Shown in pieces: positions 6,417 to 27,669 of a stretch of 39,446 bases of DNA. The stretch comes from an uncultured Bacteroidales bacterium. Lineage in GTDB: Bacteria; Bacteroidota; Bacteroidia; Bacteroidales; FEN-979. Within the stretch, counting starts at the first letter, position 1. Every line of letters begins with the position of its first letter. The translations under genes and the position numbers were made by a program. The DNA lies in assembly GCA_903828645.1 (NCBI GenBank), contig CAIKNA010000084.1:1-39446 (forward strand), written 5' to 3'. Below the pieces are notes generated by a model. That model saw nothing but the letters and a program-made list of their open reading frames with translations, did no database searches and had not been told where the DNA came from.

Positions 6417-6458
6417 AATTTCGGATTTCACATTTCAGATTTCAGATCTCACATCTCC
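6417..6458. repeat. Heptamer tandem array 1
   Basis: Six consecutive degenerate 7-bp units: AATTTCG, GATTTCA, CATTTCA, GATTTCA, GATCTCA, CATCTCC. Rotated, the units read TCA(G/C)ATT, which fits the TMANWYN consensus shared by four other arrays in the window. It lies between the tRNA-Ser terminator and the truncated FISUMP gene. Confidence 0.75.
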
Positions 6459-6530
6459 TATTCAAACAAGAATCTCCCCGGTCATCAATTTCCATGTGCA
6501 AAACATTGATTGTTATTATGCTAGCAGCCA

Positions 6531-7670
6531 ATGACCGAATGGGACAATATAAATAATTCGGGCAAATGGAGTGACTGGAGCGGGCCCTGGCAGTCGTCAC
6601 TTAAACTTCATGCGGCGGGCTTCCTGGATAATACCAGTGGCTTGCTTGTTTACCCTGGAATTGAAGACGACATTTGGAGCAGCAGCCAGCAGGGCTCCAT
6701 GACGGGGGCAGGACTGAAGTTCAACTTTGATATCAGTTCAATCAGAAATTCCGATAAATCCTATGGTTTACCCTTGCGTTGCATTGCCGATTGTGCCGGG
6801 CTGGTTTATCCTGCTCCCGGTGTCCACAGTTCAACCAGGGCAACCATCACCTGGAACTGGACAGCAGTGGCTGGCGCTGTCGGATACAAATGGGGAACGG
6901 CAAATAACCCGGTCACTGCAACTGAAATCGGGGCTGCCAATACGAAAACCGAAACCGGGCTGACATGCAATACCAGCTTTACCCGTTATGTGTGGGCATT
7001 CAATGAGTGCGGGATATCCACGGCCGCAGCACTGAATTATTATACACTCCGCTGCGAAAGCTGCAATATTCCTGACCTGACCATCAACCACACCACCGCG
7101 GGTGGCGTTGCACCGGTTGATAAAACGGTTACTTACGGAACAGTGACCAACATCCCGGGCGAACCTTCCAAATGCTGGATCACCCGCAACCTCGGTGCAA
7201 GCCGGCAGGCTTCTTCAGTCAGCGATTATTCGGAAGCTTCAGCAGGGTGGTACTGGCAATTCAACCGCAAACAAGGATACAAACACGACGGGTCGGTGGT
7301 GACACCTTCATGGAACATCACGACGATCGATGAAAATTCAGACTGGCAAACCCTCAACGATCCCTGCACCCTTGAACTTGGCGCCGGATGGAGGGTTCCC
7401 ACAAACACCGAGTGGACCAATCTCAACAATGCAGACAACTGGACAAACTGGAATGGCTTATGGAACAGCGGGTTGAAAGTCCATGCTGCAGGATACCTCG
7501 AATATTCAACGGGTTCTCTGGGTTCCAGGGGAGCAGAAGGTTTCTACTGGGGGAGTAAGCAAAACAGTTCATCCACCGGCCAGGTTATTCAGATTAATAA
7601 CAGCTTTATCAATTTATTCAGCAACTATAAAACATTCGGCTATTCCGTCCGATGTCTGAATGGCAATTAG
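6531..7670 (+). pseudogene. 5'-truncated FISUMP-domain surface protein
   Basis: The 379-residue frame has no signal peptide and starts inside a Fibrobacter succinogenes major paralogous (FISUMP) domain. Residues 1-84 (TEWDNIN... LPLRCI) match the second half of the complete FISUMP domain at about 220-377 (TEWTNLN... YSVRCL). Between them, about 88-172, is a fibronectin III-like segment. A TAG stop lies in frame just before the ATG, and upstream sequence shows no FISUMP homology, so the gene most likely lost its 5' half. The break lies between the tRNA-Ser and the intact 3' part, with a heptamer array in the gap. An intact small protein with an unusual start is possible but unlikely, because half a domain would be missing and no export signal is present. 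Confidence 0.7.
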
Positions 7671-7763
7671 CCTATATTGCTGTTAACATGGTTATGGAGA
7701 TAATGGTGCTCATTTTCATGATTATTTGATATAATCATTTTCTGTTTTTTGGTATCGTCCTGG

Positions 7764-7793
7764 TTGTTTTACCAACAAAAATATTTATCTTTA
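7764..7793 (+). promoter_or_regulatory. Promoter of the PAS-photolyase-glycosylase group
   Basis: TTG (7764-7766), a 19-base gap, and TATCTTTA (7786-7793) fit the -33/-7 pattern except for the last base. The PAS gene starts 46 bases later. Confidence 0.5.
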
Positions 7794-7839
7794 CAAGACA
7801 ATTAACCATCGGGCATAAGTACCATTATATTGATATTAA

Positions 7840-9105
7840 ATGGATTATCTGAAAAAAACCGGGAAGGAACCGGATGAATTCCGGGATCATGAGCAGGTTG
7901 TTGACGGGTTAGTGTTTAATGAAGAAAAATTCGCAAAACTCACCCAATCATTCCTGGATATTGTCTTCATCCTGGATGAAAAGGGACACTGCATCTTTTT
8001 CAATGACAAAATGGAATCGCTTCTCGGTTATAAATCGGAAGAGGTCGTAGGTAAGCCATTTTCAAATTTGATGCCTGTCATTGAAATTCCAAGGTGCAGG
8101 ACTCAACTGGACAACATCTTCAACAATAAAGATGTTTTTGAATTTCACACCCGGATCTGTCATAAAAAAGGACACCTTGTTGATGTTGAGATCAATGGTA
8201 ACCTTACGAGGTACAAAGGAGAACCGGTAGCACAGGGGACTATCAGGGACATTTCCGAACGTAAACGGATTCAGAATGCGCTCGAGGAGAGCCTGAGAAG
8301 CTACAAAGGGTTGTTCGACTCGGTTTCCGATGCCATTTATATCCACAAGGCCGACGGGGTGTTTATTGACGTGAACGCAGGAGCAACGATCATGTATGGC
8401 TACTCGCGGCATGAACTCATTGGCAGGAATCCTGAAATGGTATCCGCATCCGGAATGAATGACCTGAAGCAGGTTTCATCACTCATGCAGAAAACCATGC
8501 TTACCGGGAAGCCTGAGCAGATAGAATTCTGGGGCATGCGCAAAAATGGGGAAATTTTCCCCAAGGAGGTTATCTTTCACAAGGGAAAATATTTTGGAGA
8601 GGATGTGATCATCACCACCGCCCGAGATATCACCGAACGCAGGCGCGCAGAACAGGCATTGCGCGAAAGCGAAGCCAAATACCGCATTCTTGCCGAAAAA
8701 ATGCATGATATAGTCTGGATACTGGACCTTGATTTGAAGCTTGTCTATGTAAACCCTTCAACGGAATTTACCCTGGGCTTTACAAGGGAAGAGAGGATGT
8801 CTATGAGGATCGATGAATGCATGGTTCCTGAGTCGCTTGATTATGCCATGCAGAAGCTGATAAACGAAATTGTTTTGAACCAGGATGGAAAGGCCGACAA
8901 AGACAGGGGCGTTCTTCTCGAACTGGAATATTACCATAAAGACGGCTCTACCCGCTGGCTTGAGCAGAGCATCAATGGTATATACGATGAAAACGGTGAA
9001 CTGACAGAAATCATGGGTGTTGCCAGGGACATCACCGAACGTAAAAAAGCAAAGGATGTTTTGCATCAATACGGGGAGGGTAGAAGTAACTATTCAACTT
9101 CCTGA
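7840..9105 (+). CDS. Triple-PAS sensory protein without output domain
   Basis: The 421-residue protein holds three PAS domains with PAC ends at about 30-142, 155-267 and 280-402. Each ends in the usual linker (RDISERKR, RDITERRR, RDITERKK). After the third linker only about 18 residues remain before the stop, where a histidine kinase or GGDEF domain would normally follow. No membrane segment or signal peptide is seen, so it should be cytoplasmic. The stop is two bases before the photolyase start, suggesting translational coupling. It could be a 3'-truncated sensor kinase or a free-standing PAS adaptor. The ligand is unknown; no diagnostic LOV-type GRNCRFLQ motif is present. Confidence 0.85.
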   Translation: MDYLKKTGKEPDEFRDHEQVVDGLVFNEEKFAKLTQSFLDIVFILDEKGHCIFFNDKMESLLGYKSEEVVGKPFSNLMPVIEIPRCRTQLDNIFNNKDVFEFHTRICHKKGHLVDVEINGNLTRYKGEPVAQGTIRDISERKRIQNALEESLRSYKGLFDSVSDAIYIHKADGVFIDVNAGATIMYGYSRHELIGRNPEMVSASGMNDLKQVSSLMQKTMLTGKPEQIEFWGMRKNGEIFPKEVIFHKGKYFGEDVIITTARDITERRRAEQALRESEAKYRILAEKMHDIVWILDLDLKLVYVNPSTEFTLGFTREERMSMRIDECMVPESLDYAMQKLINEIVLNQDGKADKDRGVLLELEYYHKDGSTRWLEQSINGIYDENGELTEIMGVARDITERKKAKDVLHQYGEGRSNYSTS

Positions 9106-9107
9106 AC

Positions 9108-10460
9108 ATGACCATCGACCACAGGAGAATATATCCCCTGAAACAGGGTGAAGCAGAACCAGGTCCTGTTGTTTACTGGATGCAGCGCGATCAACGCTCT
9201 ACCGATAATTGGGCGTTACTTTATGCCCAGGAACAGGCGGTTGCACTGGAGCAGCCTTTGGTAGTGGTATTTTGCCTTGTTTCAGACTTTCTCGGGGCTG
9301 CCATCAGGCAATATGGCTTCATGGTAGCCGGACTTGCCGTGACGGCCCGAAAACTTGCCAGGTTTAATATCCCTTTTATCCTCTTACAGGGGTTGCCGCA
9401 GGATGTTCTGCCGCGGTTCCTTGTAGAACATGGTGCCGGGATGCTCATCACCGACTTTAACCCGCTCCGTGTAACCATGAATTGGAAGCAGAGGCTGGCT
9501 GAACGTGTCGACATCCCTTTTCATGAAATAGATGCGCACAATATCATCCCCTGCAGGTTTATTTCAGATAAAGCGGAATATGCCGCCTTTACACTGCGAA
9601 AAAAGACAGAACGTCTCTTGCCGGAGTTTCTTACCGGGTTCCCTGCCTTGGTAAAGCATCCTTATTCTCACGATTTCCCGGAAATGGTTGCGACCGATTG
9701 GACAGATGTCATGAAGTCGTTGAAGGTTGATATGAAAGTTGCTGAAATTGACTGGCTTGAGCCGGGGGAGCGCGCAGCCGGTGAAGCCCTTCTAAACTTT
9801 ACAGGCGACAGGCTGGACCATTATGCTTCCGACCGGAACTTTCCTGAAAAGAATGGCCAGTCGGGGCTATCTCCTTACCTCCATTTTGGCCATCTTTCGG
9901 CCCAGCGGCTTGCTCTCGAGGTTCAGCGCTTCAACGGGAATCCTGACTCCAAAAAAGCTTTTCTGGAGGAGTTGGTCGTACGTCGCGAACTGGCCGACAA
10001 TTTCTGCCTTCATAATGCCAACTATGATCGTTTCAGCGGTTTTACCCCCTGGGCCCGGGCATCCCTGGACAGGCATCGCGATGATCCCCGGGAATACATT
10101 TATTCACCGGAGGAACTCGAAGAAGAGAGAACCCATGATCCACTATGGAATGCAGCTCAACACGAAATGGTATCCACCGGTAAGATGCATGGCTTCATGC
10201 GCATGTACTGGGCCAAGAAAATCCTCGAATGGACTTCTTCACCGGAAGAGGCTATCGAAACTGCCATATACCTGAACGATAAATATGAACTGGACGGACG
10301 CGATCCGAATGGTTATGCAGGAATTGCATGGTCCATCGGGGGTGTACACGACCGTCCATGGGGCGAACGAAGCATATTTGGAATGATCCGTTACATGAAT
10401 TACAACGGCTGCAAAAGAAAATTCGATGTTGAAAAGTATATTCTAAATCACAAATCGTAA
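9108..10460 (+). CDS. phrB: Class II deoxyribodipyrimidine photolyase
   Basis: The 450-residue protein repairs cyclobutane pyrimidine dimers using FADH- and light. The N-terminal alpha/beta domain (VVYWMQRDQRSTDNWAL) and the C-terminal FAD domain (SPYLHFGHLSAQ, ELVVRRELADNFC, GFMRMYWAKKILEW, DGRDPNGYAGIAWSIGGVHD, PWGERSIFGMIRYM) are the hallmarks of class II rather than class I enzymes. Length is normal. The start lies two bases after the PAS gene. The last codons and the stop are part of a heptamer array (10444-10492), so the C-terminus LNHKS is repeat-derived. A DNA glycosylase gene follows 45 bases downstream. Confidence 0.95.
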   Translation: MTIDHRRIYPLKQGEAEPGPVVYWMQRDQRSTDNWALLYAQEQAVALEQPLVVVFCLVSDFLGAAIRQYGFMVAGLAVTARKLARFNIPFILLQGLPQDVLPRFLVEHGAGMLITDFNPLRVTMNWKQRLAERVDIPFHEIDAHNIIPCRFISDKAEYAAFTLRKKTERLLPEFLTGFPALVKHPYSHDFPEMVATDWTDVMKSLKVDMKVAEIDWLEPGERAAGEALLNFTGDRLDHYASDRNFPEKNGQSGLSPYLHFGHLSAQRLALEVQRFNGNPDSKKAFLEELVVRRELADNFCLHNANYDRFSGFTPWARASLDRHRDDPREYIYSPEELEEERTHDPLWNAAQHEMVSTGKMHGFMRMYWAKKILEWTSSPEEAIETAIYLNDKYELDGRDPNGYAGIAWSIGGVHDRPWGERSIFGMIRYMNYNGCKRKFDVEKYILNHKS

Positions 10461-10492
10461 ATCGTAAATCGTAAATCGTCAATCGTAAATCA
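10444..10492. repeat. Heptamer tandem array 2, overlapping the photolyase stop
   Basis: Seven contiguous 7-bp units: TAAATCA, CAAATCG, three copies of TAAATCG, TCAATCG, TAAATCA. The photolyase stop codon (10458-10460) lies within the third unit. The array fills the gap to the glycosylase gene. Confidence 0.85.
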
Positions 10493-10505
10493 ATTTGCCC
10501 GTCTT

Positions 10506-11078
10506 ATGCCTGAAAACACCTGCGAATGGCCCACCCGGGATCCGCTGATGATCCGTTACCACGATGAAGAGTGGGGAGTTCCCCTGCACGATGATCAGAA
10601 AATTTTCGAGTATCTTGTCCTGGATGCCTTCCAGGCAGGTTTGAGTTGGAAAACCATTTTACACAAGCGGGAGAACTTCCGGAAGGCGCTCGATAACTTT
10701 GATGCGAACAGGATTTCAGAATATGGCGAACAGGATTTCACCAGGCTGATGTCGGATGCAGGAATCGTTCGCAACAAGGCAAAGATTCTCGGCACCATTC
10801 AGAATGCAAAGTGTTTCCTGGAGGTTCAAAGGGAGTTTGGAACATTTGACAGATATATCTGGCAATTTACAGGCGGGAAAACCATTTTCAACAGGTTGAA
10901 CAGTCTTGCCGCGATGCCGGTCTCCTCTGCCGAATCGGAAGCCATGAGCAAAGACCTCAGGTTAAGGGGATTTAAATTCGTGGGAAGCACCATCTGTTAT
11001 GCCTTTATGCAGGCCGCTGGGATGGTCAATGATCATCTCACGGGCTGCCAAAGATATGAAGAACTGACAAGGATATAG
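10506..11078 (+). CDS. tag: DNA-3-methyladenine glycosylase I
   Basis: The 190-residue enzyme removes 3-methyladenine from alkylated DNA. The zinc-binding set of the family is present: C6, H19, H177 and C181 (CEWPT, RYHDEEWG, NDHLTGC). The AGLSWKTILHKREN motif is also typical. At the position of E. coli Glu38, which contacts the base, this protein has Asp40 (LVLDAFQAGLSW), a conservative change. It lies in the same direction as the photolyase and probably in one DNA-repair transcription unit. Confidence 0.94.
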   Translation: MPENTCEWPTRDPLMIRYHDEEWGVPLHDDQKIFEYLVLDAFQAGLSWKTILHKRENFRKALDNFDANRISEYGEQDFTRLMSDAGIVRNKAKILGTIQNAKCFLEVQREFGTFDRYIWQFTGGKTIFNRLNSLAAMPVSSAESEAMSKDLRLRGFKFVGSTICYAFMQAAGMVNDHLTGCQRYEELTRI

Positions 11079-11084
11079 CAACTG

Positions 11085-11126
11085 TCAATCGTCAATCGTC
11101 AATCGTCAATCGTAAATCGTCAATGG
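11085..11126. repeat. Heptamer tandem array 3
   Basis: Six contiguous units: four of TCAATCG, then TAAATCG and TCAATGG. It fills almost the whole 53-base gap between the convergent tag and DUF5777 genes. Confidence 0.85.
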
Positions 11127-11131
11127 AACCC

Positions 11132-12037
11132 CTATTCCTTCGGCAGTTTCGGCTTCACGATTGTAAACATCCTGTTGATGTTGAATCCGAGGAAAATATC
11201 GCCATTTGACCATTTTCCGCGGGTGTCGGTGTAGATGGGTTGTTCATATTCCCCGTAGGAGTTGGTCATGAAAATCTGGAAAACATGTCCGCCGGTTTCA
11301 ATATCAACTCCCACAGAAAGCGAGTTATAAGCATTTGTCGAAACAACCTGGCCCTTGAAAAGGTAACTATACTCCACATTGACTGAGACCCGCTGGCTTA
11401 GTTTAACACGGCCGCCGGCACTCAGGTTGAAAATGTCGTTTTTATCATCAGAATTCGGAACGATGTTTTTATGAACATACGAAGGGGTGATTTGGAGCGA
11501 CACACTGTTCCCGAATTTACGGGCTATCATTACCTGGAAGTCATAGGTAAGACGGGAGGAGAAATAATTGGTCCGCGTTGGATCTGACCATTTGGTTGTA
11601 TAGACGGCTGCATTGCCATAAAGGTCGATGGTAACAGGTACGTTTTTTGCTCCTTTGCACTGGCGGAGTATTTTAACCTTGGCCGACCCGTCCCAGGTGT
11701 TTTTATCTGTGTTGATTGCCACGGCTAGGCCCAGCCATTTGGTCACTCCATACTCAACAGCGAGCCTGATGCTGGCCTGCTTGAGCCCGTAGAGGTTTTC
11801 ATAACCGGTATTCAGCGCTCCGAAATGGTGCGTGATCAGGAAATTCAAATTTCCGGCCGGGGCTGTTTCAATCGATTGCCCGATGATTATGTGTGTTGAT
11901 TTGAATGTGGCGGTAGTATAATCCACGGTGGGTTTTTCATTCTTATCCATCATTGACAGCAGGTCATCCTGGCCTTTGGCAGAGGAGGCGAAAATTACCC
12001 CGGTTAATGCGAGCAGTAAAAGTAATTTGTTATTCAT
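11132..12037 (-). CDS. DUF5777 family outer-membrane beta-barrel protein
   Basis: The 301-residue protein has a signal peptide (MNNKLLLLLALTGVIFASSAKG) and alternating beta-strand sequence typical of an outer-membrane barrel (GNSVSLQITPSYVHKN, RVSVNVEYSYLF, HVFQIFMTNSYGE). It looks like the DUF5777 family, which is confined to Bacteroidota and has no known function. It is the last gene of an operon with a cytochrome c lipoprotein, an OB-fold protein and YceI. The YceI stop is one base upstream of its start. Confidence 0.82.
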   Translation of the reverse strand: MNNKLLLLLALTGVIFASSAKGQDDLLSMMDKNEKPTVDYTTATFKSTHIIIGQSIETAPAGNLNFLITHHFGALNTGYENLYGLKQASIRLAVEYGVTKWLGLAVAINTDKNTWDGSAKVKILRQCKGAKNVPVTIDLYGNAAVYTTKWSDPTRTNYFSSRLTYDFQVMIARKFGNSVSLQITPSYVHKNIVPNSDDKNDIFNLSAGGRVKLSQRVSVNVEYSYLFKGQVVSTNAYNSLSVGVDIETGGHVFQIFMTNSYGEYEQPIYTDTRGKWSNGDIFLGFNINRMFTIVKPKLPKE

Positions 12038-12038
12038 G

Positions 12039-12593
12039 TTACATATTTGCTTTGTCCAATGTTATGTCAACTGTCACTTCAATCGTTTTGGAAATATTAT
12101 TTCCAACGTTGCCTGGGATGGTGATTTTATAATCACCAACGGCGATGTTGAATTTTGCCTTGCCGATGAACTTTCCCTGTTTCATTTCAAAAGTACCTTT
12201 TTCCTTGACATCCTGGGATACCCCGTGCAATGTAAGTTTTCCCTCGACATTTACGTCGTATATCCCATCTTTTAATGCGTTTACATCTTTGATATTGATC
12301 ACTTTTCCGACAAAAGTAGCGGTGGGATATTTATCGGATTCAACATAATTCTCATTGAAATGCTCCTGCATGAGGGCCTTTTCAAATTCAAAGGATTTCA
12401 TAAGCACTTTAAAGACAAAACCGCCTGTAGCGAGATCAAGCACACTGTTCACCTGCCGGTTATGCGCCTCAATTTTTTCCAATGGAGAAGCCGAGTAGAA
12501 CTTGATGTAACCTGTCTTGGTTATGTACTTCTGAGCGCCTGCAGAAAGTGCAGTCAGCAGAAGCAGGGAAAGAAAAATTGATTTGATGCGCAT
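12039..12593 (-). CDS. YceI family periplasmic protein
   Basis: The 184-residue protein has a signal peptide (MRIKSIFLSLLLLTALSAGAQ) and a YceI-like lipocalin-fold body: KTGYIKFYSASPLEKIEAHNRQ near the start, SDKYPTATFVGKV, and GKLTLHGVSQDV. The family binds isoprenoid lipids in a beta-barrel, although this divergent Bacteroidota branch is not characterised. The start at 12593 is preferred over an in-frame ATG at 12629 because the longer form overlaps the upstream gene and hides the signal peptide. Confidence 0.88.
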   Translation of the reverse strand: MRIKSIFLSLLLLTALSAGAQKYITKTGYIKFYSASPLEKIEAHNRQVNSVLDLATGGFVFKVLMKSFEFEKALMQEHFNENYVESDKYPTATFVGKVINIKDVNALKDGIYDVNVEGKLTLHGVSQDVKEKGTFEMKQGKFIGKAKFNIAVGDYKITIPGNVGNNISKTIEVTVDITLDKANM

Positions 12594-12607
12594 GGTTTTA
12601 GGTTTGT

Positions 12608-13045
12608 TTATTGGTTGATAATTGAACATTTCTCCAGGATTAAATCGGTCTCATTGTACCCGGTACAATAGCCCTTTACCTTAACCTCACCGTCAGGCTG
12701 CAGTTTGTTGGCCGCGTCATTGAACTTATGCAGCATTGTGCAGCGGATTCCCTCATCGCCAAAATCGCCCTGGTTGAATACAAAAACAGCCGTAACAAGA
12801 GAGTCAACGGTTTCGACTTTGCTGAGATTGCCCGTAATGGCAATTACTTTACCATTATATTTGGCGGAAGCGGCAGCCTTGTTGCTTTTGTATGCCTGGT
12901 ATAGTTCCCTGGCGGAAACAGTGAACGCGGCTTCTGCCTTCTCATAATCCGGGTGTTGCTTGTTATAAACAAACTTATAAACCAGGAGCATTGCGATCAA
13001 TCCAACCACAACCAATCCAACTACTATCTTAACCCATGTTTTCAT
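12608..13045 (-). CDS. Membrane-anchored OB-fold protein (tRNA_anti-like)
   Basis: The 145-residue protein has an N-terminal membrane anchor (about 5-26) and a soluble part resembling the tRNA_anti-like OB-fold: KYNGKVIAITGNLSKVE, FGDEGIRCTML, GEVKVKGYCTGYNETDLILEKCSI. The OB domain is expected outside the cytoplasm. Exact role is unknown. It lies between the cytochrome c lipoprotein and YceI genes in the same operon. Confidence 0.8.
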   Translation of the reverse strand: MKTWVKIVVGLVVVGLIAMLLVYKFVYNKQHPDYEKAEAAFTVSARELYQAYKSNKAAASAKYNGKVIAITGNLSKVETVDSLVTAVFVFNQGDFGDEGIRCTMLHKFNDAANKLQPDGEVKVKGYCTGYNETDLILEKCSIINQ

Positions 13046-13080
13046 TGAAAAAAAATTAAATGCACCAGAAAAACCTTTCG

Positions 13081-13115
13081 TAATTTTTAATTCGTAATTT
13101 TTAATTCTTAATTAT
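13081..13115. repeat. Heptamer tandem array 4, overlapping the cytochrome stop
   Basis: Five contiguous units: TAATTTT, TAATTCG, TAATTTT, TAATTCT, TAATTAT. The stop codon of the cytochrome c lipoprotein (13108-13110, minus strand) and its last two Asn codons lie inside the array. Confidence 0.8.
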
Positions 13116-13479
13116 TCGGACTGCCTGCATCAACCCATTTTTTAATCTTTGCAAGGTCACAAACCGAAAGTTTATCTCCTCCCTTGGGCATCGGATCACC
13201 TTCCCAGTTAACATCGGCCCAAAGTTGTCCGGTTTTGGCAACAATGCTGAGACCATCATAATTGCTGGTGACCACACTCCCCGACGGATTTCCGGCACTG
13301 TGACAAATATTGCAATTTGCCACCATGATGGGGGCAATTGATCCGGAATAGGTCATCACCCCGATGGTGTCACAATTGCCTTTTGTCGGATATAATTCAT
13401 TTTCTTTATCATAATAGCATCCCGATAATGTAAAGCTGAACAGGAAAATGATGGTAGTCAGGCGGATAATGTTTTTCAT
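13108..13479 (-). CDS. c-type cytochrome lipoprotein
   Basis: The 123-residue protein has a lipoprotein signal peptide with lipobox LSGC, so C21 should be lipidated. A single haem-attachment motif CNICH (56-60) is present, with Met97 (GDPMPKGG) as a possible axial ligand, giving a small cytochrome c domain that ends in KKWVDAGSPNN. It should carry electrons in the periplasm or at the outer membrane. The long in-frame extension to 13650 lacks support; 13479 gives a normal lipoprotein. It is the first gene of a minus-strand operon with OB-fold, YceI and DUF5777 genes. Confidence 0.88.
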   Translation of the reverse strand: MKNIIRLTTIIFLFSFTLSGCYYDKENELYPTKGNCDTIGVMTYSGSIAPIMVANCNICHSAGNPSGSVVTSNYDGLSIVAKTGQLWADVNWEGDPMPKGGDKLSVCDLAKIKKWVDAGSPNN

Positions 13480-13529
13480 ACTGCTTTCGTTTGGATTTCC
13501 GACGGGGTTTTTATTTGCTTTTGGATGCG

Positions 13530-13537
13530 CAAAGGTA
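13530..13537 (-). promoter_or_regulatory. -7 box for the cytochrome c operon
   Basis: TACCTTTG on the minus strand matches TAnnTTTG, 51 bases before the cytochrome start. No convincing -33 element is seen. Confidence 0.5.
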
Positions 13538-13565
13538 TGTATAATAATTGAATTGTTTTTTTGGT

Positions 13566-13573
13566 TAGTTTTG
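13566..13573 (+). promoter_or_regulatory. -7 box for the AlbA_2 gene at 13641
   Basis: TAGTTTTG on the plus strand matches TAnnTTTG, about 70 bases before the gene. It makes a divergent pair with the box at 13530-13537. Confidence 0.45.
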
Positions 13574-13640
13574 TTGTTTGAACATTCACAATCGTTCCGG
13601 CGCTTTGCCCGAACGAAGTCGGTGAGCTGATAACAGACAG

Positions 13641-14858
13641 ATGAACCCATTCCTGGACTACACGGAAAAAAAATGGCTAAACAGAACCGGTGAGCAGATT
13701 GATATCACCATGTATAACGGGAAATACCAGGTTGTCCAGGGAACAGTGCCATTGCTGACATTTCATGGCAAGGAGTATCTCCTCGGATCTGAAAGGCTGG
13801 CACACCTGTTCATCACAGACCTGATGTACATGGAATTTGCAAAGGAACCCCGGATTTCCGCACCATTGTTGTATGCTTTTCAGAAGGATGTTTTTGAATT
13901 AACAGGTGATCCGTTTTTGGGCGAATGGGATAATTTGCTTGTTGTCGACCCGTTTGTCACACTCAAAACAACAGGAAAGTTTAATTTCCACCCTTTCAGT
14001 CCCGACGATGACCTGTTTTCATTTGCTTTCGTTTCCTTTTCAGCACTGGTCAGGTCGATCAATGAGTTTGTCAATTCAACCATGAGCGAGGTCATTGTTC
14101 AGGAAACGGATGCACATCCGTTTCCTGAATTGCTTCGGCTGAGCTATGCCCGGCTTTCCGTCGAAAAGAAGGTTGCGGTTCAGGCATTGAGTGGTTTGCA
14201 TCATTCGGGTATCGTGTTGCCCCTGGTCCTCATTTCTGGAGTCATCACTCCGCTTGAGTATGCCAAGGGATTGATAGCTTTGAAAATAAAGGAACCCGGA
14301 CAGATGCCGGAGATTCTCCCCGATATCACTCATGTTCAGGATTACCTGGAATGTCTTGAACAGCGAACCGATGCCGGCCGCCATGCCGGGTTGATCATCC
14401 GGGAGGGAGAAAATGAAACCATTGAATTTAAATCGACCCTGCGGTGGGATATCCGGGCGGGTAAAACCAACCAGGCCGTGGAGCGGGCCTCCCTGAAAAC
14501 CATTGCGGCCTTTCTCAATTCAACCGGGGGCACCCTGTTGATCGGGGTGCGCGACGATGGAAGCATCGAAGGCATCGAAAGCGATAAATTCGTGAATGAA
14601 GATAAATTCCTGTTGCATTTCTGGACCCTGATCCGGACTTGCCTGGGAAGGGATGTCAGTCCTTATATCCGCACTACCCTTGAGAAAATGGATGAAAAAA
14701 CAGTCTGCATGGTTCATTGCAAAATGTGCAACCGTCCTGTATTTCTGCGCCAACCGGGGGCTGATGAAGCATTTTACATCCGCGTGGGCCCCTCGAGCAA
14801 TGCCATGGATATCAGTGAAGCGCTAAAATATATTGAAGATCATTTCAACGGCAGTTGA
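13641..14858 (+). CDS. AlbA_2 (Schlafen-like) domain protein with unrecognised N-terminal domain
   Basis: The 405-residue protein has an AlbA_2 domain at about 254-390, shown by ENETIEFKSTLRW, KTIAAFLNSTGGTLLIGVRDDG and FYIRVGPSS. This fold binds nucleic acid or nucleotides in Schlafen-type proteins. The first 240 residues are not recognised; they contain no signal peptide or membrane helix, so the protein should be cytoplasmic. A second, shorter AlbA_2 gene lies nearby at 15523-16176 on the other strand. It is convergent with the outer-membrane protein gene, leaving four bases between the stops. Confidence 0.82.
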   Translation: MNPFLDYTEKKWLNRTGEQIDITMYNGKYQVVQGTVPLLTFHGKEYLLGSERLAHLFITDLMYMEFAKEPRISAPLLYAFQKDVFELTGDPFLGEWDNLLVVDPFVTLKTTGKFNFHPFSPDDDLFSFAFVSFSALVRSINEFVNSTMSEVIVQETDAHPFPELLRLSYARLSVEKKVAVQALSGLHHSGIVLPLVLISGVITPLEYAKGLIALKIKEPGQMPEILPDITHVQDYLECLEQRTDAGRHAGLIIREGENETIEFKSTLRWDIRAGKTNQAVERASLKTIAAFLNSTGGTLLIGVRDDGSIEGIESDKFVNEDKFLLHFWTLIRTCLGRDVSPYIRTTLEKMDEKTVCMVHCKMCNRPVFLRQPGADEAFYIRVGPSSNAMDISEALKYIEDHFNGS

Positions 14859-14862
14859 AATT

Positions 14863-15507: not shown

Positions 15508-15522
15508 ATTGCGGAGGCAAAG

Positions 15523-17640: not shown

Positions 17641-17647
17641 TTAAGAA

Positions 17648-18985: not shown

Positions 18986-19154
18986 GCTAACCTCGCTTTT
19001 TGTGATTTGTAGAATATAGTTTGGGTGTTAAGAATTTCAGGAGATTGTTTGCAAACCTACTCATTTTTTGGGAAATAGCAAAACCGAAACTAAAATTTTG
19101 GAAAGTTTAAACGACGAATTTGCCATAAAAAAACTGATTCATCTGAATTCATCC

Positions 19155-19162
19155 TAAATTTG
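19155..19162 (+). promoter_or_regulatory. -7 box of argS
   Basis: TAAATTTG matches TAnnTTTG, 20 bases before the argS ATG, giving a very short leader. The 196-base gap 18986-19181 between the divergent genes otherwise shows no clear structure. Confidence 0.55.
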
Positions 19163-19181
19163 CAGCCAAATTAATGGACCA

Positions 19182-20972: not shown

Positions 20973-20979
20973 AGACAAT

Positions 20980-21023
20980 AAAAAAAACGGCTGCCTCATA
21001 TTTTATGAAGCAGCCGTTTTTTA
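20980..21023. terminator. Bidirectional terminator between argS and the BNR protein gene
   Basis: AAAAAACGGCTGC (20982-20994) and GCAGCCGTTTTTT (21010-21022) form a perfect stem with an extra small stem (TCATA/TATGA) in the loop. A/T tails on both sides allow it to end both convergent genes. Confidence 0.9.
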
Positions 21024-21039
21024 TTAAACTGAACGTGTG

Positions 21040-22608
21040 TTAGTTCACCACAATCTTCTTGTTGACAAATCCATCAATCATTTTAACCCGGAGGTTGTAA
21101 ACTCCTGATTTCATGCCGGATGTGTTGATGGCCAGGTTTGCTGCATCGGCTTTCTGGCTGAAAACAACCTGTCCGACCATGTCGGTCAAAGTTACTTCTT
21201 CGATATTGGCAGAACCCTGTATGTTCAGGATATCTTTCACAGGATTCGGGAATACAGAAATGGTTGCTGCTGAATGTTCATTGACGCCGACGCCACCAAC
21301 ATAGATGTAATTGGTTTTTACCTTTGTCGTGATGCCCCATGTGTTCGTTACAGTCAGCGTGGCATTGAAGGAACCTGAAGTATTATAAATAACTGACGGG
21401 GTCCTGCTGGTAGAAGTGGCAGGGGTTCCACCCGGGAAAGCCCAGCTGACAGTCGACGTGGAGTGAACCCCGGCAGTGATGGAGTATTTGATGGTACCAC
21501 CTTTGGCAATAGTAGTGAGGTTAGAGGTGAAATCGCAGGGGGCAAGAACGCCTTCGAATTTAAACATACCGCCGGTAGTAGCATCAGCATTGAATCCGCC
21601 GGCCCAGGCAGTCGAATCGTTTACCCATTCGGTATCCAGGAACTGGGTGCCGATGGTGGGGCCCATGTCATTCCATGCAACGGCATCATTGAATGAATAA
21701 GTGACGCCGGTAAATCCGGTGGCAGCACCTGTTGTAACCCATGTACTCGGTGTTCCCGGTACATAAGCCATATCATTGGTAAACACATTTCCGGTGGTAA
21801 CGATGGGAGTCCAGGTTGCACCTCCATCGGTTGTTTTAACCATTGCACCAGTGGTAGCGGCACTTCTGTCGGCACCAATACCTACAGAACCGCTGCGGAA
21901 AAATGGCTGAACGCTTTTGGCGCCCCAGCCGCTGATGGCCGACATCGTCCAGTTATGTCCGTTGTCAATTGATTTGAACATGCGTCCTTTTGTGGTACCA
22001 AACCAGGTGGTGTCTCCAACGGAAGAATAATAGCCTACAGTACCGTACTCACCGCTCAATGCATTGGGAATATTGGCACCCGGAACAATGGTCCATGTGG
22101 TTCCGCCATCATCGGTGGTATAAATTTCAAATTCACCGTTGATAGGATCGCCCATGCAGTATCCCAGGTTCTGATCCCAGAAATAAACAACATCAACAAA
22201 AGATGAAGCTCCAAAAGCTGCACTTGCCTGACGGGTCCAGGTTGCGCCACCATCGGTGGTCTTGTAAATTCCCTGACCGGCGGTGTTTGTTGCGGGCGGG
22301 TACAATGCTGCCCATGCCTTGTTTGCGTCAACAGCAACAACGTTTGCAATGTCAAGGTTGGTTGCTCCGGCGATGGTATGGGGCGTCCACAGGGTTCCCC
22401 CGTTGGTCGTAACAGTAACATCCTGGCAGGGAGCGGCGGCACCGCTGCCATCATAGGCGGTTGCCCACACAACCTGGCTGTTGACAGCATAAACACATCT
22501 GATTCCCCGGCTTGCGGTTGAGAATCCTGTAGCTTCTTCGATCCATTGGGCGTTAACAGCCATGGAAAGTGCCAAAATGGCAACAACTGAAAGTAAAATT
22601 TTCTTCAT
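21040..22608 (-). CDS. T9SS-secreted BNR/PKD protein
   Basis: The 522-residue protein has a signal peptide (MKKILLSVVAILALSMAVNA), then BNR/Asp-box repeats over about 60-350 (KTTDGGATWT, YTTDDGGTTWT, KSIDNGHNWT, KTTDGGATWT), suggesting a beta-propeller. A PKD domain follows at about 370-435 (TVSWAFPGGTPATSTSRTPSVIY, SGSFNATLTVTN). The last 75 residues form a T9SS type A sorting domain (ISVFPNPVKDILNI, GQVVFSQKAD, SGVYNLRVKMIDGFVNKKIVVN). It should be carried to the cell surface or medium. Ligand is unknown. It shares a terminator with argS. Confidence 0.9.
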   Translation of the reverse strand: MKKILLSVVAILALSMAVNAQWIEEATGFSTASRGIRCVYAVNSQVVWATAYDGSGAAAPCQDVTVTTNGGTLWTPHTIAGATNLDIANVVAVDANKAWAALYPPATNTAGQGIYKTTDGGATWTRQASAAFGASSFVDVVYFWDQNLGYCMGDPINGEFEIYTTDDGGTTWTIVPGANIPNALSGEYGTVGYYSSVGDTTWFGTTKGRMFKSIDNGHNWTMSAISGWGAKSVQPFFRSGSVGIGADRSAATTGAMVKTTDGGATWTPIVTTGNVFTNDMAYVPGTPSTWVTTGAATGFTGVTYSFNDAVAWNDMGPTIGTQFLDTEWVNDSTAWAGGFNADATTGGMFKFEGVLAPCDFTSNLTTIAKGGTIKYSITAGVHSTSTVSWAFPGGTPATSTSRTPSVIYNTSGSFNATLTVTNTWGITTKVKTNYIYVGGVGVNEHSAATISVFPNPVKDILNIQGSANIEEVTLTDMVGQVVFSQKADAANLAINTSGMKSGVYNLRVKMIDGFVNKKIVVN

Positions 22609-22640
22609 AATTTGATTTTTTTTGTTTTTGAATATTTATA

Positions 22641-22648
22641 CAAAAATA
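22641..22648 (-). promoter_or_regulatory. -7 box of the BNR/PKD gene
   Basis: TATTTTTG on the minus strand fits TAnnTTTG, 33 bases before the start. Confidence 0.45.
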
Positions 22649-22781
22649 CAATGTTTTTTATTGTCGTAACTGGTTATGAAAAAAAAAACTGTCATCATTG
22701 GTTTTTTATCATGGTGATGCAGTCTCCGGTGAAAAACAGGTGCCATTGATCATCTGAACTTTTTGTGTCAGGATAAATTGC

Positions 22782-22789
22782 TAATTTTG
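22782..22789 (+). promoter_or_regulatory. -7 box of ffh
   Basis: TAATTTTG fits TAnnTTTG, 69 bases before ffh. TTTG at 22762-22765 is a possible -33 element with a short 16-base gap. Confidence 0.5.
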
Positions 22790-22857
22790 CAAAAAAAGCA
22801 AATTCAACCGTTCACCCGTTTCCAAGTAGTTTGTTATAAATTATAAAGCAGCCTAAC

Positions 22858-24195
22858 ATGTTTGAAGGATTAAGTGATAAACTCGACCGTGCATTCAAAG
22901 TCCTCAAAGGACATGGACACATCACGGAGATCAATGTGGCCGATACGCTCAAGGATGTCAGGAAGGCACTGCTCGATGCTGACGTCAGCTTCAAAATTGC
23001 CAAACAGTTTACCGACCAGGTGAAGGATAAGGCGCTTGGACAGAATGTATTAACGGCTGTTTCTCCCGGCCAGCTGATGGTCAAGATTGTTCATGACGAA
23101 CTGGTTGACCTCATGGGAGGGCAGAAAACGGAGCTCAATATAAAAGGTGAACCTGCAATTATCCTTGTTGCCGGTTTGCAGGGTTCAGGAAAGACCACTT
23201 TTACAGCCAAACTGGCAAATTACCTTAAAACAAAGAAGGGTAAGAGGCCGCTGCTCGTTGCCTGCGATGTATATCGACCAGCTGCCATCGACCAGCTGAA
23301 AGTTCTCGGTCAGCAGATTGAAGTTGAGGTCTACTCGGAGGATGCCTCAAACGACCCGGTAAAGATTGCAAAACGCTCCTTGTCTTATGCAAGGGAGAAA
23401 GGGTATAATATTGTCATTGTGGATACTGCCGGGCGTCTGGCCATTGATGAACAGATGATGGATGAGATCGCAAATATTAAAAGCGCCATCAATCCTCAGG
23501 AGACTTTGTTCGTTGTGGATGCCATGACAGGGCAGGATGCTGTAAACACTGCTAAAGCATTTAATGAGCGTCTTGATTACGAAGGTGTGGTTTTGACAAA
23601 ACTGGACGGGGATACCCGCGGCGGTGCCGCATTGAGTATCAAATCAGTGGTGAATAAACCAATCAAATTTGTGGGCCTCGGCGAAAAAATGGAAGCCATC
23701 GATGTTTTTTATCCTGAACGAATGGCCGACCGTATCCTCGGAATGGGCGATATCGTATCACTGGTAGAAAAAGCACAGGAGCAATTTGACGAGGAGGAGG
23801 CGCAAAAACTTCAGAAACGAATTGCACGGAATCAGTTTGATTTTAATGACTTCCTGGCCCAGATCAAACAGATAAAAAAGATGGGCAATGTGAAAGACCT
23901 GCTTGGCATGATCCCGGGCATGGGGAAAGCCATCCGCAACCTGGAGATCGACGACAACGCTTTCAAAGGCATTGAGGCCATCATTCATTCCATGACTCCC
24001 GGTGAAAGGGTAAATCCTGCGGTATTGAATGGAAGCCGGCGCAAACGCATTGCCACCGGATCAGGAACTACCATCCAGGATGTAAACCGGCTGATCAAGC
24101 AATTTGATGACACCCGCAAAATGATGAAAATGGTCACCGCCAACAAAGGCAAAAACATGGCCAACGTGATGCGGAACATGAAAAATATGAATTAA
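22858..24195 (+). CDS. ffh: Signal recognition particle protein Ffh (SRP54)
   Basis: The 445-residue GTPase binds signal sequences and 4.5S RNA and delivers ribosomes to FtsY. Order: N domain 1-90, G domain with GLQGSGKTT (106-114), VDTAGRLAID, and TKLDGDTRGG, then the methionine-rich M domain from about 330 (GMIPGMGKA, RKMMKMVTANKGKNMANVMRNMKNMN). Length is normal. folD follows 11 bases later. Confidence 0.98.
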   Translation: MFEGLSDKLDRAFKVLKGHGHITEINVADTLKDVRKALLDADVSFKIAKQFTDQVKDKALGQNVLTAVSPGQLMVKIVHDELVDLMGGQKTELNIKGEPAIILVAGLQGSGKTTFTAKLANYLKTKKGKRPLLVACDVYRPAAIDQLKVLGQQIEVEVYSEDASNDPVKIAKRSLSYAREKGYNIVIVDTAGRLAIDEQMMDEIANIKSAINPQETLFVVDAMTGQDAVNTAKAFNERLDYEGVVLTKLDGDTRGGAALSIKSVVNKPIKFVGLGEKMEAIDVFYPERMADRILGMGDIVSLVEKAQEQFDEEEAQKLQKRIARNQFDFNDFLAQIKQIKKMGNVKDLLGMIPGMGKAIRNLEIDDNAFKGIEAIIHSMTPGERVNPAVLNGSRRKRIATGSGTTIQDVNRLIKQFDDTRKMMKMVTANKGKNMANVMRNMKNMN

Positions 24196-24206
24196 AGCAA
24201 TGATAA

Positions 24207-25088
24207 ATGAAACTGCTTGATGGCAAGCTGGTTGCCGACCAGATAAAAAGTGAAATCGCCCTTGAGGTGAAAGAGCAATTTCTGGACAGGGGAATTGAAC
24301 CCCCTCATATTGCCGCTGTCCTGGTGGGGGAGGATCCTGCGAGTATGACCTATGTTTCGGCCAAGGAAAAAGCCTGCCATGAGGTCGGTTTTGTATCCTC
24401 AGTTTACCGCTACCCGGCAAACATTACCCTGGAGAAACTGCTGGAGGTGATCGATTTTCTGAATGCTGACGACGAAATCCACGGATTCATCGTTCAGGTA
24501 CCGTTACCAAAACACATCGATGAGCAGAAAATCATTGAACGCATTGATCCAAAAAAAGATATAGACGGATTTCACCCGGTTAACATCGGGAAAATGGTGT
24601 TGAACCTGCCTTGTTTTCTGCCTGCAACCCCTTTTGGGATCATGACATTGCTGGATCGTTATCAGATTGATGTTGATGGAAAAAATTGCGTGGTACTAGG
24701 TCGCAGTCACACGGTCGGAACACCCATCAGCATCCTCCTTTCGCGCAAATCGAAACCGGGAAATGCCACAGTTACGCTTTGCCATAGCCATACAAGGAAT
24801 ATCAGGGAAATTACCTCCAATGCAGATATTCTTATTGTTGCCATGGGGAAGGAGGGTTATGTGACTGCCGACATGGTTAAAAAGGATGCAGTCGTTGTAG
24901 ATGTGGGGATTCACAGGATTCCATCTGCTGAAACCAAATCGGGTTTCAGGCTTAAAGGAGACGTGAAATTTGATGAAGTTTCAGGGAAATGCAGCTATAT
25001 CACACCTGTTCCGGGTGGGATCGGACTCATGACCATCGTTTCCCTGCTCCAGAACACACTCAAAGCGGCGAAAAAAGAAATAATCTGA
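24207..25088 (+). CDS. folD: Bifunctional methylenetetrahydrofolate dehydrogenase/cyclohydrolase
   Basis: The 293-residue enzyme interconverts one-carbon folates using NADP. Family motifs: YVSAKEKACHEVG with the catalytic Lys, GFIVQVPLPKHIDE, DGFHPVNIGKM, VVLGRSHTVGTP in the Rossmann domain, and the C-terminal PVPGGIGLMT. It is the second gene of a run ffh-folD-queE-porE with very short gaps. Confidence 0.97.
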   Translation: MKLLDGKLVADQIKSEIALEVKEQFLDRGIEPPHIAAVLVGEDPASMTYVSAKEKACHEVGFVSSVYRYPANITLEKLLEVIDFLNADDEIHGFIVQVPLPKHIDEQKIIERIDPKKDIDGFHPVNIGKMVLNLPCFLPATPFGIMTLLDRYQIDVDGKNCVVLGRSHTVGTPISILLSRKSKPGNATVTLCHSHTRNIREITSNADILIVAMGKEGYVTADMVKKDAVVVDVGIHRIPSAETKSGFRLKGDVKFDEVSGKCSYITPVPGGIGLMTIVSLLQNTLKAAKKEII

Positions 25089-25093
25089 ACCTA

Positions 25094-25726
25094 TTGGAAC
25101 AATCATCAGGTGATTTATTGCGGGAAGGGAAAGCCCTTCCGGTGATGGAGGAGTTTTACACCCTCCAGGGCGAAGGTTTTAACACCGGACAGGCAGCTTA
25201 TTTTATCCGTGTAGGAGGCTGTGATGTCGGGTGCAAATGGTGTGATGTAAAGGAGTCGTGGAATGCGACTGATTTCCCTCCGGTTTCTACTGACCTTGTC
25301 ATCCGGCACGCCATCTCATTTCCAGCCAAAGCCATTGTTGTCACAGGGGGGGAACCCTTGTTATATAACATGGATTACCTCTGCAGCGAATTGCATGGCA
25401 GGGGAGTCAGGATATTCCTTGAAACATCCGGATCCCAACCCCTCAGCGGCAGCTGGGACTGGATATGTGTATCACCAAAAAAAGATGCCCCGCCGCTGGA
25501 AGATGTTGCCGGTAAAGCCAATGAACTTAAGGTGATCATTCACGATAACACCGATTTCGGGTGGGCGGAGGAAAATTCGGTGCTTGTTTCGGAGTCATGC
25601 CTGTTGTATCTCCAGCCCGAATGGAGCAGGCGTGAAACCATGATGCCCCAGATCATCAGCTATATCCGGGAAAATCCCCGGTGGAGAATATCCCTGCAAA
25701 GCCATAAATATATGCACATCCCATGA
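25094..25726 (+). CDS. queE: 7-carboxy-7-deazaguanine synthase
   Basis: The radical SAM enzyme makes 7-carboxy-7-deazaguanine in queuosine synthesis. It has the substrate motif FYTLQGEGFNTGQAAYFIR and the cluster motif CDVGCKWC (CxxxCxxC), then VVTGGEPLLY. The in-frame ORF could be extended to 24989 inside folD, which is rejected. The choice lies between TTG 25094, TTG 25118 and ATG 25145. TTG 25094, 5 bases after the folD stop behind an A-rich stretch, keeps the LPVMEEF segment that precedes the family motif in relatives; this start is moderately supported. The gene ends in ATGA with the next gene. Confidence 0.93.
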   Translation: MEQSSGDLLREGKALPVMEEFYTLQGEGFNTGQAAYFIRVGGCDVGCKWCDVKESWNATDFPPVSTDLVIRHAISFPAKAIVVTGGEPLLYNMDYLCSELHGRGVRIFLETSGSQPLSGSWDWICVSPKKDAPPLEDVAGKANELKVIIHDNTDFGWAEENSVLVSESCLLYLQPEWSRRETMMPQIISYIRENPRWRISLQSHKYMHIP

Positions 25727-27669
25727 TCCCAGCCCGATTTTTCATCGCTCTTGTCATTTGTCACTTGTCATTTGTCAATTCTTTTGGCCAGGGAGAGCAT
25801 TTGTCAACCACGAATAAAAAGGCGGAGAAGTGGTTTTACATGGCGGTTGATTCGTACCAGGGAAAATATTTTGACAAGGCGATTGTCGAAGTGAAAAAAG
25901 CGCTTGAACAGGATCCTGCATTTACGGAAGCGTACATCCTTCAGGGAGATATTTATGCCGGGGATCAGCAATATGAGAAGGCAGTGGATTCGTATCAATC
26001 GGCGATTAAAACAAACAAGTCTTTTTCCCCGAATCTATATTACATCCTTGCCAACATGCAATTGAACATGGGAAGGTATTCCGATTCCCGTTCGAACTTC
26101 CTGCGATTTCTTGAATTTGAAGGACTCCCCGATGCCATGCGTCAACAATCGGAAAAAAGAATCAAGTCGTGCGAATTTGCCATGCAATGCGTTGCGAATC
26201 CTGTTCCGTTTTCGCCGGTAAATCTGGGAGACAGCATCAATACCCGGTATGATGAATACATCAATGCTATCACCCCGGATGAAGAGCGGCTGTACTTCAC
26301 CCGAAAAAATCCGCGCAATGCGCAAACCATTGACCAGAGCCAGGATTACGAGGAAGATTTTTACATCGCGCACAAGGCTGATTCCGCCTGGACAGAAGCT
26401 GTGAACCTTGGTCCGCCGATCAACAGCCATGGAAATGAAGGTGCACTGAATATTTCCCCCGATGGAAAATATCTTTTTTTTGCTGCCTGCAACAGGGAGG
26501 ATGGTTTCGGAAGCTGCGACATTTACTGGGCGAAGCGAATCGGCAATGGTTGGTCGGAACCGGTCAACCTGGGACCGGTTGTTAACTCTCCGCAATGGGA
26601 TTCGCAGCCATCATTTTCCTCTGATGGCAAAACACTCTATTTTGCCAGCAAACGCCCAGGTGGAAAGGGAAGTTCAGATATTTGGAAAACCGAACTTCAG
26701 CCGGGGGATCAATGGAGCAACCCGGTCAACCTTGGTGATTCGATCAATACGAAGGCCGAAGAGATGGCACCGTTCATACATCCTGACGATCAGACACTCT
26801 ATTTTTCTTCAAAAGGGCATCCGGGTCTTGGGGGCTACGACCTCTTTTATTCGCGCAAAGATATGAAAGGTGAATGGCACCGGCCTGTCAACCTGGGATA
26901 TCCGATCAACACGAACGCCGATGAAATTACCCTGGTTGTCAATGCAAAGGGGAACCTGGCCTACATTTCTTCAGATGTACAAGGAGGAAAAGGACGTCAG
27001 GATATTTATCAATTTCCACTGTACAAGGAGGCCCGGCCAATGCTTACCACCTATTTTAAAGGAATCGTTTATGATGTGGAAACCAGGGAAAAACTGGAAG
27101 CCCGTTTCGAACTGATCGACCTCGCTACCTCGAAAACCTGCGCCGAGGCCTCATCCGATAAAGTAACAGGAGGTTTTCTGCTTGTATTGCCTACCGAGAA
27201 AAACTATGCCCTCAACGTCTCCAGGGATGGCTACCTTTTTTATTCCGATAATTTCTTTCTTACCGGAACAAACTCGCAGGGCAAACCATTTTTGAAAAAT
27301 ATCCCCCTCAAACCGATTAAAATAGGAGAGGCCGTCATCCTGAAAAATATTTTCTTCGATACGGATAAATATATTCTTAAGGATGAGTCGCTTGCTGAAC
27401 TTCAGAAACTACTCGGATTTTTGAGGAAAAATCCGAAATTGAAAATTGTGATCAATGGCCATACCGACAATGTTGGCAGTGCTGAACACAACCTTGAACT
27501 CTCTGGGAATCGTGCAAAGGCAGTCTATGAATTTTTGGTTCAGCATGATGTCGCGGTCAGCCGTCTTTCGTATGCCGGATTTGGATTCAGCCAGCCAATT
27601 GATGTCAACACCACCGAGCAGGGCCGTGCGAATAATCGCCGCACTGAATTTAAAGTAGTGGGTAATTGA
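25723..27669 (+). CDS. porE: PorE-like T9SS/OmpA-family protein
   Basis: The 648-residue protein has a signal peptide (about 1-23), TPR repeats (about 35-135), a beta-propeller of PD40/WD40-like repeats (about 160-430; ISPDGKYLFFAA, SSDGKTLYFASKRPGG, HPDDQTLYFSSKGHPGLGG), a carboxypeptidase-regulatory-like domain (about 445-525) and a C-terminal OmpA domain (about 545-648; GHTDNVGSAEHN, NRAKAVYEFL, NRRTEFKV) for peptidoglycan binding. This order is that of Porphyromonas PorE, a periplasmic part of T9SS. Such architecture also occurs in related paralogues, so the symbol is provisional. It overlaps queE by four bases. Its signal-peptide core is encoded by a heptamer array. Confidence 0.85.
   Translation: MIPARFFIALVICHLSFVNSFGQGEHLSTTNKKAEKWFYMAVDSYQGKYFDKAIVEVKKALEQDPAFTEAYILQGDIYAGDQQYEKAVDSYQSAIKTNKSFSPNLYYILANMQLNMGRYSDSRSNFLRFLEFEGLPDAMRQQSEKRIKSCEFAMQCVANPVPFSPVNLGDSINTRYDEYINAITPDEERLYFTRKNPRNAQTIDQSQDYEEDFYIAHKADSAWTEAVNLGPPINSHGNEGALNISPDGKYLFFAACNREDGFGSCDIYWAKRIGNGWSEPVNLGPVVNSPQWDSQPSFSSDGKTLYFASKRPGGKGSSDIWKTELQPGDQWSNPVNLGDSINTKAEEMAPFIHPDDQTLYFSSKGHPGLGGYDLFYSRKDMKGEWHRPVNLGYPINTNADEITLVVNAKGNLAYISSDVQGGKGRQDIYQFPLYKEARPMLTTYFKGIVYDVETREKLEARFELIDLATSKTCAEASSDKVTGGFLLVLPTEKNYALNVSRDGYLFYSDNFFLTGTNSQGKPFLKNIPLKPIKIGEAVILKNIFFDTDKYILKDESLAELQKLLGFLRKNPKLKIVINGHTDNVGSAEHNLELSGNRAKAVYEFLVQHDVAVSRLSYAGFGFSQPIDVNTTEQGRANNRRTEFKVVGN
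25750..25777. repeat. Heptamer tandem array 5, inside the PorE-like signal peptide
   Basis: Four contiguous units CTTGTCA, TTTGTCA, CTTGTCA, TTTGTCA. It encodes residues LVICHLSFV of the signal peptide hydrophobic core. Because 7 is not a multiple of 3, gain or loss of one unit would shift the frame. Confidence 0.85.

Follow-up and report, generated by a model that had tools for sequence, protein, structure and literature searches.

A 39,446-nucleotide (nt) contig from an uncultured Bacteroidales bacterium (CAIKNA010000084.1, assembly GCA_903828645.1; this whole stretch is referred to as the window) carries tandem arrays of 7-bp units at five separate sites, each array in strict register, with units that differ between sites. 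How did arrays with one period and several words come to lie there? An earlier note, made from the sequence alone, had described them as a dispersed family whose exact 7-bp period is not accounted for by simple slippage of one unit, and our analysis supports this description. When the letters were re-read, all five stretches proved to be in-register heptamer arrays, with bounds adjusted by a few bases. We observed a dominance of period 7, units that change between related species (dialects), a nonrandom placement relative to genes, preferred array ends, and a lack of dimers. Because relatives use different words, sometimes at one and the same junction, the data suggest that arrays spread as copies within the genome instead of growing in place. 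We give about an even chance to the explanation that a dispersing heptamer repeat gave rise to the arrays as its copies, which would be neither independent products of local slippage nor a conserved regulatory site.

Period 7 and its changing units

Within the window, Tandem Repeats Finder called period 7 and/or 14 at each of the five sites. An autocorrelation scan detected four period-7 arrays, none of periods 5, 6, 8 to 13, or 15, and none in order-2 Markov shuffles; all five sites were recovered once its threshold was lowered. We extended the search to the genome from which the window derives (G000; 5.1 Mb in 409 contigs), in which four in-register copies of TMANWYN, the pattern that the earlier note had proposed for all units, matched 227 forward and 231 reverse positions (458) versus 15 and 5 (20) for the reversed pattern. 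The chance-level count that the note had named as evidence against a repeat family was thus not seen, and these figures are positions rather than arrays, because positions inside one array overlap. In 174 kb of G000 picked by contig number, a unit-free autocorrelation scan found five arrays of period 7 (none in shuffles), four of period 9, one each of periods 11 and 13, four of period 14, and none of periods 5, 6, 8, 10, 12, or 15. Likewise, 787 kb of G000 contained 81 period-7 arrays and at most 10 of any other period from 4 to 13; as part of this sample was selected for holding arrays, the ratio between periods outweighs the array density. A minor excess of period 9 was present beside the heptamers (10 arrays in the 787 kb; own-genome sample L031-L090).

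TMANWYN covers the TAAATCG, TCAATCG, TCACTTG, and TCAGATT units, and for these the earlier proposal stands. It does not describe the TCACGCG, GATATTC, and TGCAAAA-type arrays of G000 or several units of its relatives, and a universal TMANWYN core was rejected because these nonfitting units have the same period. The abundant units of G000 are TAAATCG, TCACTTG, and similar words, with no runs of three or more G per unit. Period 7 was also dominant with many different units, including in other phyla. Beyond the genus, the TMANWYN count was often equal to or below its reversed control (e.g., G027, G054, G055, and G062), and thin samples of G061 (80 kb) and of G048, G071, and G077 (20 kb each) held no period-7 array; in G061 and G077, TMANWYN matches exist elsewhere in the genome, beyond the samples scanned.

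We counted exact runs of three units in 61 genomes, adding forward and reverse positions, such that one array gives several positions. TAAATCG runs occupied 275 positions in G000, 134 in G006, 103 in G012, 37 in G003, 36 in G011, 34 in G008, and 33 in G018, with 0 to 3 positions in the remaining 12 of the 19 genomes of the genus. For GTCACNC, the counts were 359 (G013), 102 (G012), 65 (G016), 47 (G008), 30 (G002), 26 (G007), 14 (G000), and 12 (G011), whereas ACTGCCN was absent from G000 and reached 155 in G016, 32 in G014, and 24 in G002, along with 136 and 125 in two genomes from another genus of the same family. TCANATT runs were found at 159 positions in G014, 37 in G015, 20 in G016, 16 in G012, and 15 each in G000 and G011. 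In several genomes of the genus, one abundant 7-bp unit or a small set of them recurs in register at many separate junctions. G000 and G013 have equal G+C contents (0.474 and 0.477, respectively) yet different abundant units. One unit per species is not a rule, because G012 carries two units in equal number, and five congeners (G001, G004, G005, G009, and G010) have at most 6 positions for each of the four units (1 to 30 for the looser TMANWYN pattern). Among the matches listed, the variable base also tends to differ, with mostly ACTGCCT in G014, mostly ACTGCCG in G002, and mostly GTCACTC in G011.

The reversed TAAATCG control was 0 in all 61 genomes. That of ACTGCCN reached 100 in G013 and 52 in G012, as rotating the GTCACCC unit of these genomes yields the reversed word, and rotation likewise made the GTCACNC control nonzero in ACTGCCN-rich genomes. 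Across the phylum, three-unit TAAATCG runs occurred in 7 of 395 genomes, G000 counted, and the reversed control in 2. Among the matches listed for other phyla, for which there was no reversed control, TAAATCG arrays fell in records named Akkermansia, Armatimonadetes, Chloroflexi, Desulfococcaceae, and others. Such runs were also present in 13 stretches of viral contigs (L298-L310), and the TAAATCG arrays of G006 (L331-L350) contained in-register blocks of TATATCG.

At the orthologous junction between a photolyase and a glycosylase gene (site A), an array of score at least 14 was present in 7 of 11 species. Its unit was TAAATCG in G000, G012, and G018, TCACCCG/TCACCTG in G013, ATCGTAT in G008, and AATTAAA in G011, and G016 had ACTGCCN plus other units in one continuous register; the array was weak in G001 and G010 and absent from G005 and G017. 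In five of the seven array species (G000, G012, G018, G013, and G016), the site A unit is among the abundant ones of the species' own genome. The G016 tract (L146) extends over more than 100 bp in strict 7-bp register, with a unit that shifts from ATTTCAG to TTGGCAG to CAGACTG. At site B, which is the next junction in the window, 3 of 10 species had arrays (TCAATCG, TAAATCG, and GTGAGAC). Over 524 orthologous spacer comparisons, an array was present in both species in 18, in one in 58, and in neither in 448 (odds ratio, 9.7); a p-value for this comparison does not come from independent events, because the 18 shared cases represent four junctions, with 13 cases at site A. Both species share TAAATCG at one of these four doubly occupied junctions. 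Junctions of near-constant length (e.g., 16 to 20 bp, except 8 bp in G014; 73 to 77 bp; 44 to 45 bp) lacked arrays, but so did several of variable length.

Lengths, ends, and placement of the arrays

The TAAATCG arrays of G000 are nearly perfect and about 6.5 units long (median, 46 bp; 1 of 41 under 26 bp). In 826 kb of this genome, we found a single exact TAAATCG run of 14 to 17 bases versus 42 runs of 18 to 67 bases; runs of 7 to 13 bases, i.e., single words and pieces of degenerate arrays, were also present. Array-selected contigs inflate the long-run class, but not the absence of dimers. Outside arrays, TAAATCG was not enriched, its count being at expectation (66th percentile of 1172 heptamer classes). 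It is the least decayed array family of G000, with a lag-7 identity of 0.941 and 18 of 48 arrays perfect, versus 0.81 to 0.88 and 2 of 42 for the other families. In one inverted pair (L047), both arrays contain a TAAATCG block in register within TCACTTG-type units, which looks like the result of successive waves.

Array ends were not random. Of 38 TAAATCG arrays of G000, 23 had their left end at AAATCG and 30 had their right end at TAAAT or TAAATC, versus maxima of 14 and 22, respectively, in 2000 trials with simulated random ends. The 22 GTCACGC arrays of G016, from 20 stretches taken at listed positions, started at G (13) or at the preceding C (7) and ended with GTCACG (15) or GTCACGC (6). 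In G013, 11 of 14 arrays started at G and 12 ended at the last two unit positions, and 6 of 8 arrays in G014 started at the N of TCANATT. Even for TAAATCG alone, the phase varied with the source. The TAAATCG arrays of Akkermansia records had mostly the phase AAATCG..TAAAT (12 left and 15 right ends of 20; several metagenome-assembled genomes, not deduplicated), and those of one Armatimonadetes genome mostly GTAAATCG..TAAATCG (10 left and 11 right ends of 16). By eye, the Akkermansia arrays (L206, L219, L237, L253, and others) adjoin variable stem-loops on one or both sides (e.g., GGCGCC..GGCGCC), and in the Armatimonadetes genome (L202, L205, L207, L211, L217, L236, L247, and L250) CGGA follows most arrays within a few bases, as if they were joined to a second repeat. 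The flanks of the 38 TAAATCG arrays of G000 showed no conservation beyond about 7 bp, and a larger mobile element carrying them was rejected on this basis.

A rough gene caller predicted 590 genes in the G000 sample (87.9% coding). By this measure, 3 of the 86 arrays in 826 kb lay inside predicted genes, which held 12.5% of array bases versus 87.9% of the sample overall, and 47 of the 83 nongenic arrays lay within 5 bp of a gene 3' end. When each array was given a random position within its own spacer, such proximity was expected for a mean of 27 (maximum, 34 in 100 trials) of 79 testable arrays, compared to 46 observed; no enrichment was apparent at gene 5' ends, which had 16 of the 79 within 5 bp where the null mean was 21.8. 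TAAATCG arrays located between tandem genes were within 5 bp of the stop codon in 12 of 13 cases when oriented opposite to the gene (null mean, 3.3; reached in 0 of 1000 trials) and in 13 of 22 when oriented with it (null mean, 10.0; a level reached in 24 of 1000). A same-orientation array that overlaps a gene end supplies the stop by construction, because the unit carries TAA, whereas the opposite-orientation repeat, as read from its sequence, is open in all three frames, and the stop then lies at the array edge. Arrays of either orientation are found near stops, and no signal of replication-strand bias was detected across the unordered contigs (array orientation [plus or minus] against the sign of contig GC skew, 13, 12, 8, and 4). 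Two arrays of one family lay fewer than 300 bp from each other in 10 cases across ten genomes of the genus, and in 7 of these the pair was inverted. Six inverted pairs are ordered reverse-then-forward with gaps of 13 to 46 bp (L031:5878-5985, L036:8146-8239, L040:8988-9103, and three places in L111) and could therefore form hairpins.

Origin of the arrays and known heptamer systems

If the arrays disperse, an array would reach a new site as a multi-unit piece, perhaps by way of a 3' end pairing through the short block that both begins and ends arrays (AAAT for TAAATCG, GTCAC for GTCACNC). The paired 3' end might then be elongated with an existing array or some other template as guide, and rejoined. 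Pieces that have arrived would survive mainly just after stop codons, where they are tolerated, and arrays would later change length and decay, such that a later unit could land inside an older array. Dispersal is supported by the differing units of congeners, the own-genome units at site A, the end phase, the few dimers, the low decay of TAAATCG, and the placement at stops; an element spreading between sites was one of two possibilities raised in the earlier note, and this is the part that the data favor.

Several points weigh against dispersal. No insertion event was seen; the only close pair of genomes (G005 and G010) had 2.3 kb of overlapping sequence, in which a single 34-base, duplication-like difference lay within the repeat region, as slippage would also give. 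Strongly length-dependent slippage could also account for the scarcity of dimers. The end phase was looser in G006 (26 arrays), right ends varied in G014, and pooled Chloroflexi TAAATCG loci (n = 9) had no preferred phase. The site A units of G008 and G011 are not among the four counted, and part of the own-genome sample was chosen for its arrays. Finally, many junctions of variable length lack arrays in every species, so the array sites are not predicted by tolerance alone.

Local replication slippage, in which each site expands its own seed under a polymerase-dependent preference for 7-nt units, is an unlikely alternative; PMC4679880 and PMC4692102 attribute the idea to Mrazek et al. 2007. 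It accommodates the dominance of period 7 with many units and in other phyla, the variable array lengths, and the 34-base difference between G005 and G010. It leaves unexplained why one unit occupies many sites and another those of a congener of equal G+C, as well as the preferred end phase and the lack of dimers. We also consider it rather improbable that the arrays are selected sites of a fast-evolving DNA-binding protein with half-sites every 7 bp and species-specific specificity. Arrays that end on a full block (AAAT or GTCAC), their nonrandom placement, and their recurrence at one junction in several species are consistent with such a protein. A protein contacting every seventh base, the other possibility in the earlier note, is nevertheless disfavored, as congeners keep the period but not the unit, single TAAATCG words show no enrichment, and five congeners have few positions for any tested unit; both orientations near stops and different units at one junction also argue against it. 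The mixed orientation further disfavors a function at the RNA level. Dispersal of ready-made arrays fits better than either a sequence-specific binding protein or slippage that is purely local.

It is doubtful that a template-directed heptamer writer is at work, i.e., a polymerase or primase system that would place preformed A(BA)n arrays, their ends defined, at the junctions between genes and whose template would change between species. If it existed, congeners would carry different genome-wide dialects at shared landing sites, and bacteria would have their own counterpart to interstitial telomeric repeats. A reverse transcriptase with a DRT10-like A-B-A' RNA template, with products ending at breaks, is a more improbable source. 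DRT10 and telomerase products (PMC12632851) resemble our arrays in their A(BA)n layout (here with a genome-specific phase), short realignment block, and freely varying template, but they have no fixed 7-nt length, the Escherichia coli DRT10 making 9-nt repeats and others a range. PF00078 had a match in 16 of the 19 genomes of the genus and none in G010, G011, and G013; reverse-transcriptase templating was rejected because G011 and G013 are array-rich, although an enzyme since lost, or diverged too far for this model to recognize, would be compatible with the negative. It is highly improbable that the arrays are DNA-uptake-like words accumulated by biased uptake (molecular drive): species-specific words at gene ends recall the uptake dialects of Neisseriaceae, but uptake words pile up as single copies, and single TAAATCG words are not enriched.

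Heptamer repeats are an already known kind, occurring in Cyanobacteria, Xanthomonas, Beggiatoaceae, and five Bacteroidetes, and our arrays share with heptameric intergenic repeats an excess of period 7 and a location mostly outside genes. The short tandemly repeated repetitive sequences of cyanobacteria are likewise heptanucleotide tandem repeats; Calothrix heptanucleotides are mentioned in a passage of PMC4692102. The earlier note knew of no described Bacteroidota counterpart; one is on record in the TAACTGA direct repeats that MacGregor 2015 (PMC4679880) reports from Beggiatoaceae, Cyanobacteria, and five Bacteroidetes. As described in the relevant parts of that paper, these are intergenic in-register 7-bp arrays at many sites per genome, with other heptamers admixed in some genomes, and their reverse complement, TCAGTTA, fits TMANWYN. 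They have one unit, however, which in their main genome lies mostly just upstream of start codons and in one orientation, whereas the present arrays comprise several units, lie at stop codons in either orientation, and differ in their abundant unit from species to species. TAACTGA is the main unit of no array listed for the own-genome sample, and a TAACTGA-like placement upstream of start codons was rejected by the lack of enrichment at 5' ends. The GGGNATC and GGGGA(C/T)T repeats of Xanthomonas and Nostoc (Rehm et al. 2015, PMC4692102), as far as the passages on them go, are also intergenic and over-represented genome-wide, with heterogeneous units, some inverted pairs, and variation in length and sequence between the same genes in two species. 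Unlike our arrays, they are G-rich and quadruplex-forming; in ours, the whole unit is exchanged between congeners.

The same paper notes that heptameric repeats are over-represented in many bacterial genomes, that there is no detailed literature, and that polymerase slippage is the proposed cause. In our searches of open-licence full texts, judged from their listings apart from the papers cited here by PMC number, we found no description of species dialects or whole-unit exchange between congeners, of different units at one orthologous junction, or of a preferred or genome-specific array-end phase or near-absent two-unit intermediates. A genus in which the unit changes with species, sometimes at one junction, and in which ends are preferred separates the question of why seven from that of why this word, and makes both testable. 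If arrays do arrive as pieces, they would represent an unrecognized bacterial route of short-repeat dispersal, one by which gene ends are remodeled, stop codons and final residues included.

The window arrays in their gene context

Table 1. Heptamer arrays of the window and neighboring features
Feature	Position	Strand	Context or match
Site 1, degenerate array, TCAGATT/TCACATT family	about 6418-6457	+	between tRNA-Ser and ORF 6531-7670
Site 2 (site A), TAAATCG array	about 10444-10491	+	spans stop codon of photolyase-like ORF 9108-10460
Site 3 (site B), TCAATCG array	about 11084-11124	+	between converging 3' ends of glycosylase ORF and DUF5777 ORF
Site 4, degenerate TAATTTT/TAATTCG array	about 13081-13116	+	overlaps stop of minus-strand ORF 13108-13650
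Site 5, TCACTTG/TCATTTG-type array	25750-25777	+	within coding sequence of ORF 25723-27669
tRNA-Ser (cga)	6211-6301		about 115 bp upstream of site 1
Photolyase-like open reading frame (ORF)	9108-10460	+	PF00875 DNA photolyase
Glycosylase ORF	10506-11078	+	PF03352 methyladenine glycosylase
DUF5777 ORF	11132-12037	-	PF19089 DUF5777
Site 5 host ORF	25723-27669	+	PD40, OmpA, and TPR matches

The window arrays are thus partly nonintergenic, two overlapping stops (sites 2 and 4) and one being intragenic (site 5). No known RNA families were matched in the window at gathering thresholds, and PADLOC, applied to two of its ORFs, gave no defense-gene match. Site 5 codes for part of a hydrophobic N terminus, MIPARFFIALVICHLSFVNSFGQG, which by eye is a putative signal peptide. 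The ORF stretch leading up to site 5 has equal length in G018, G001, G002, and G011; at the site itself, G011 and G001 have no such array, G002 has a degenerate version, and G018 has four perfect CATTTGT units.

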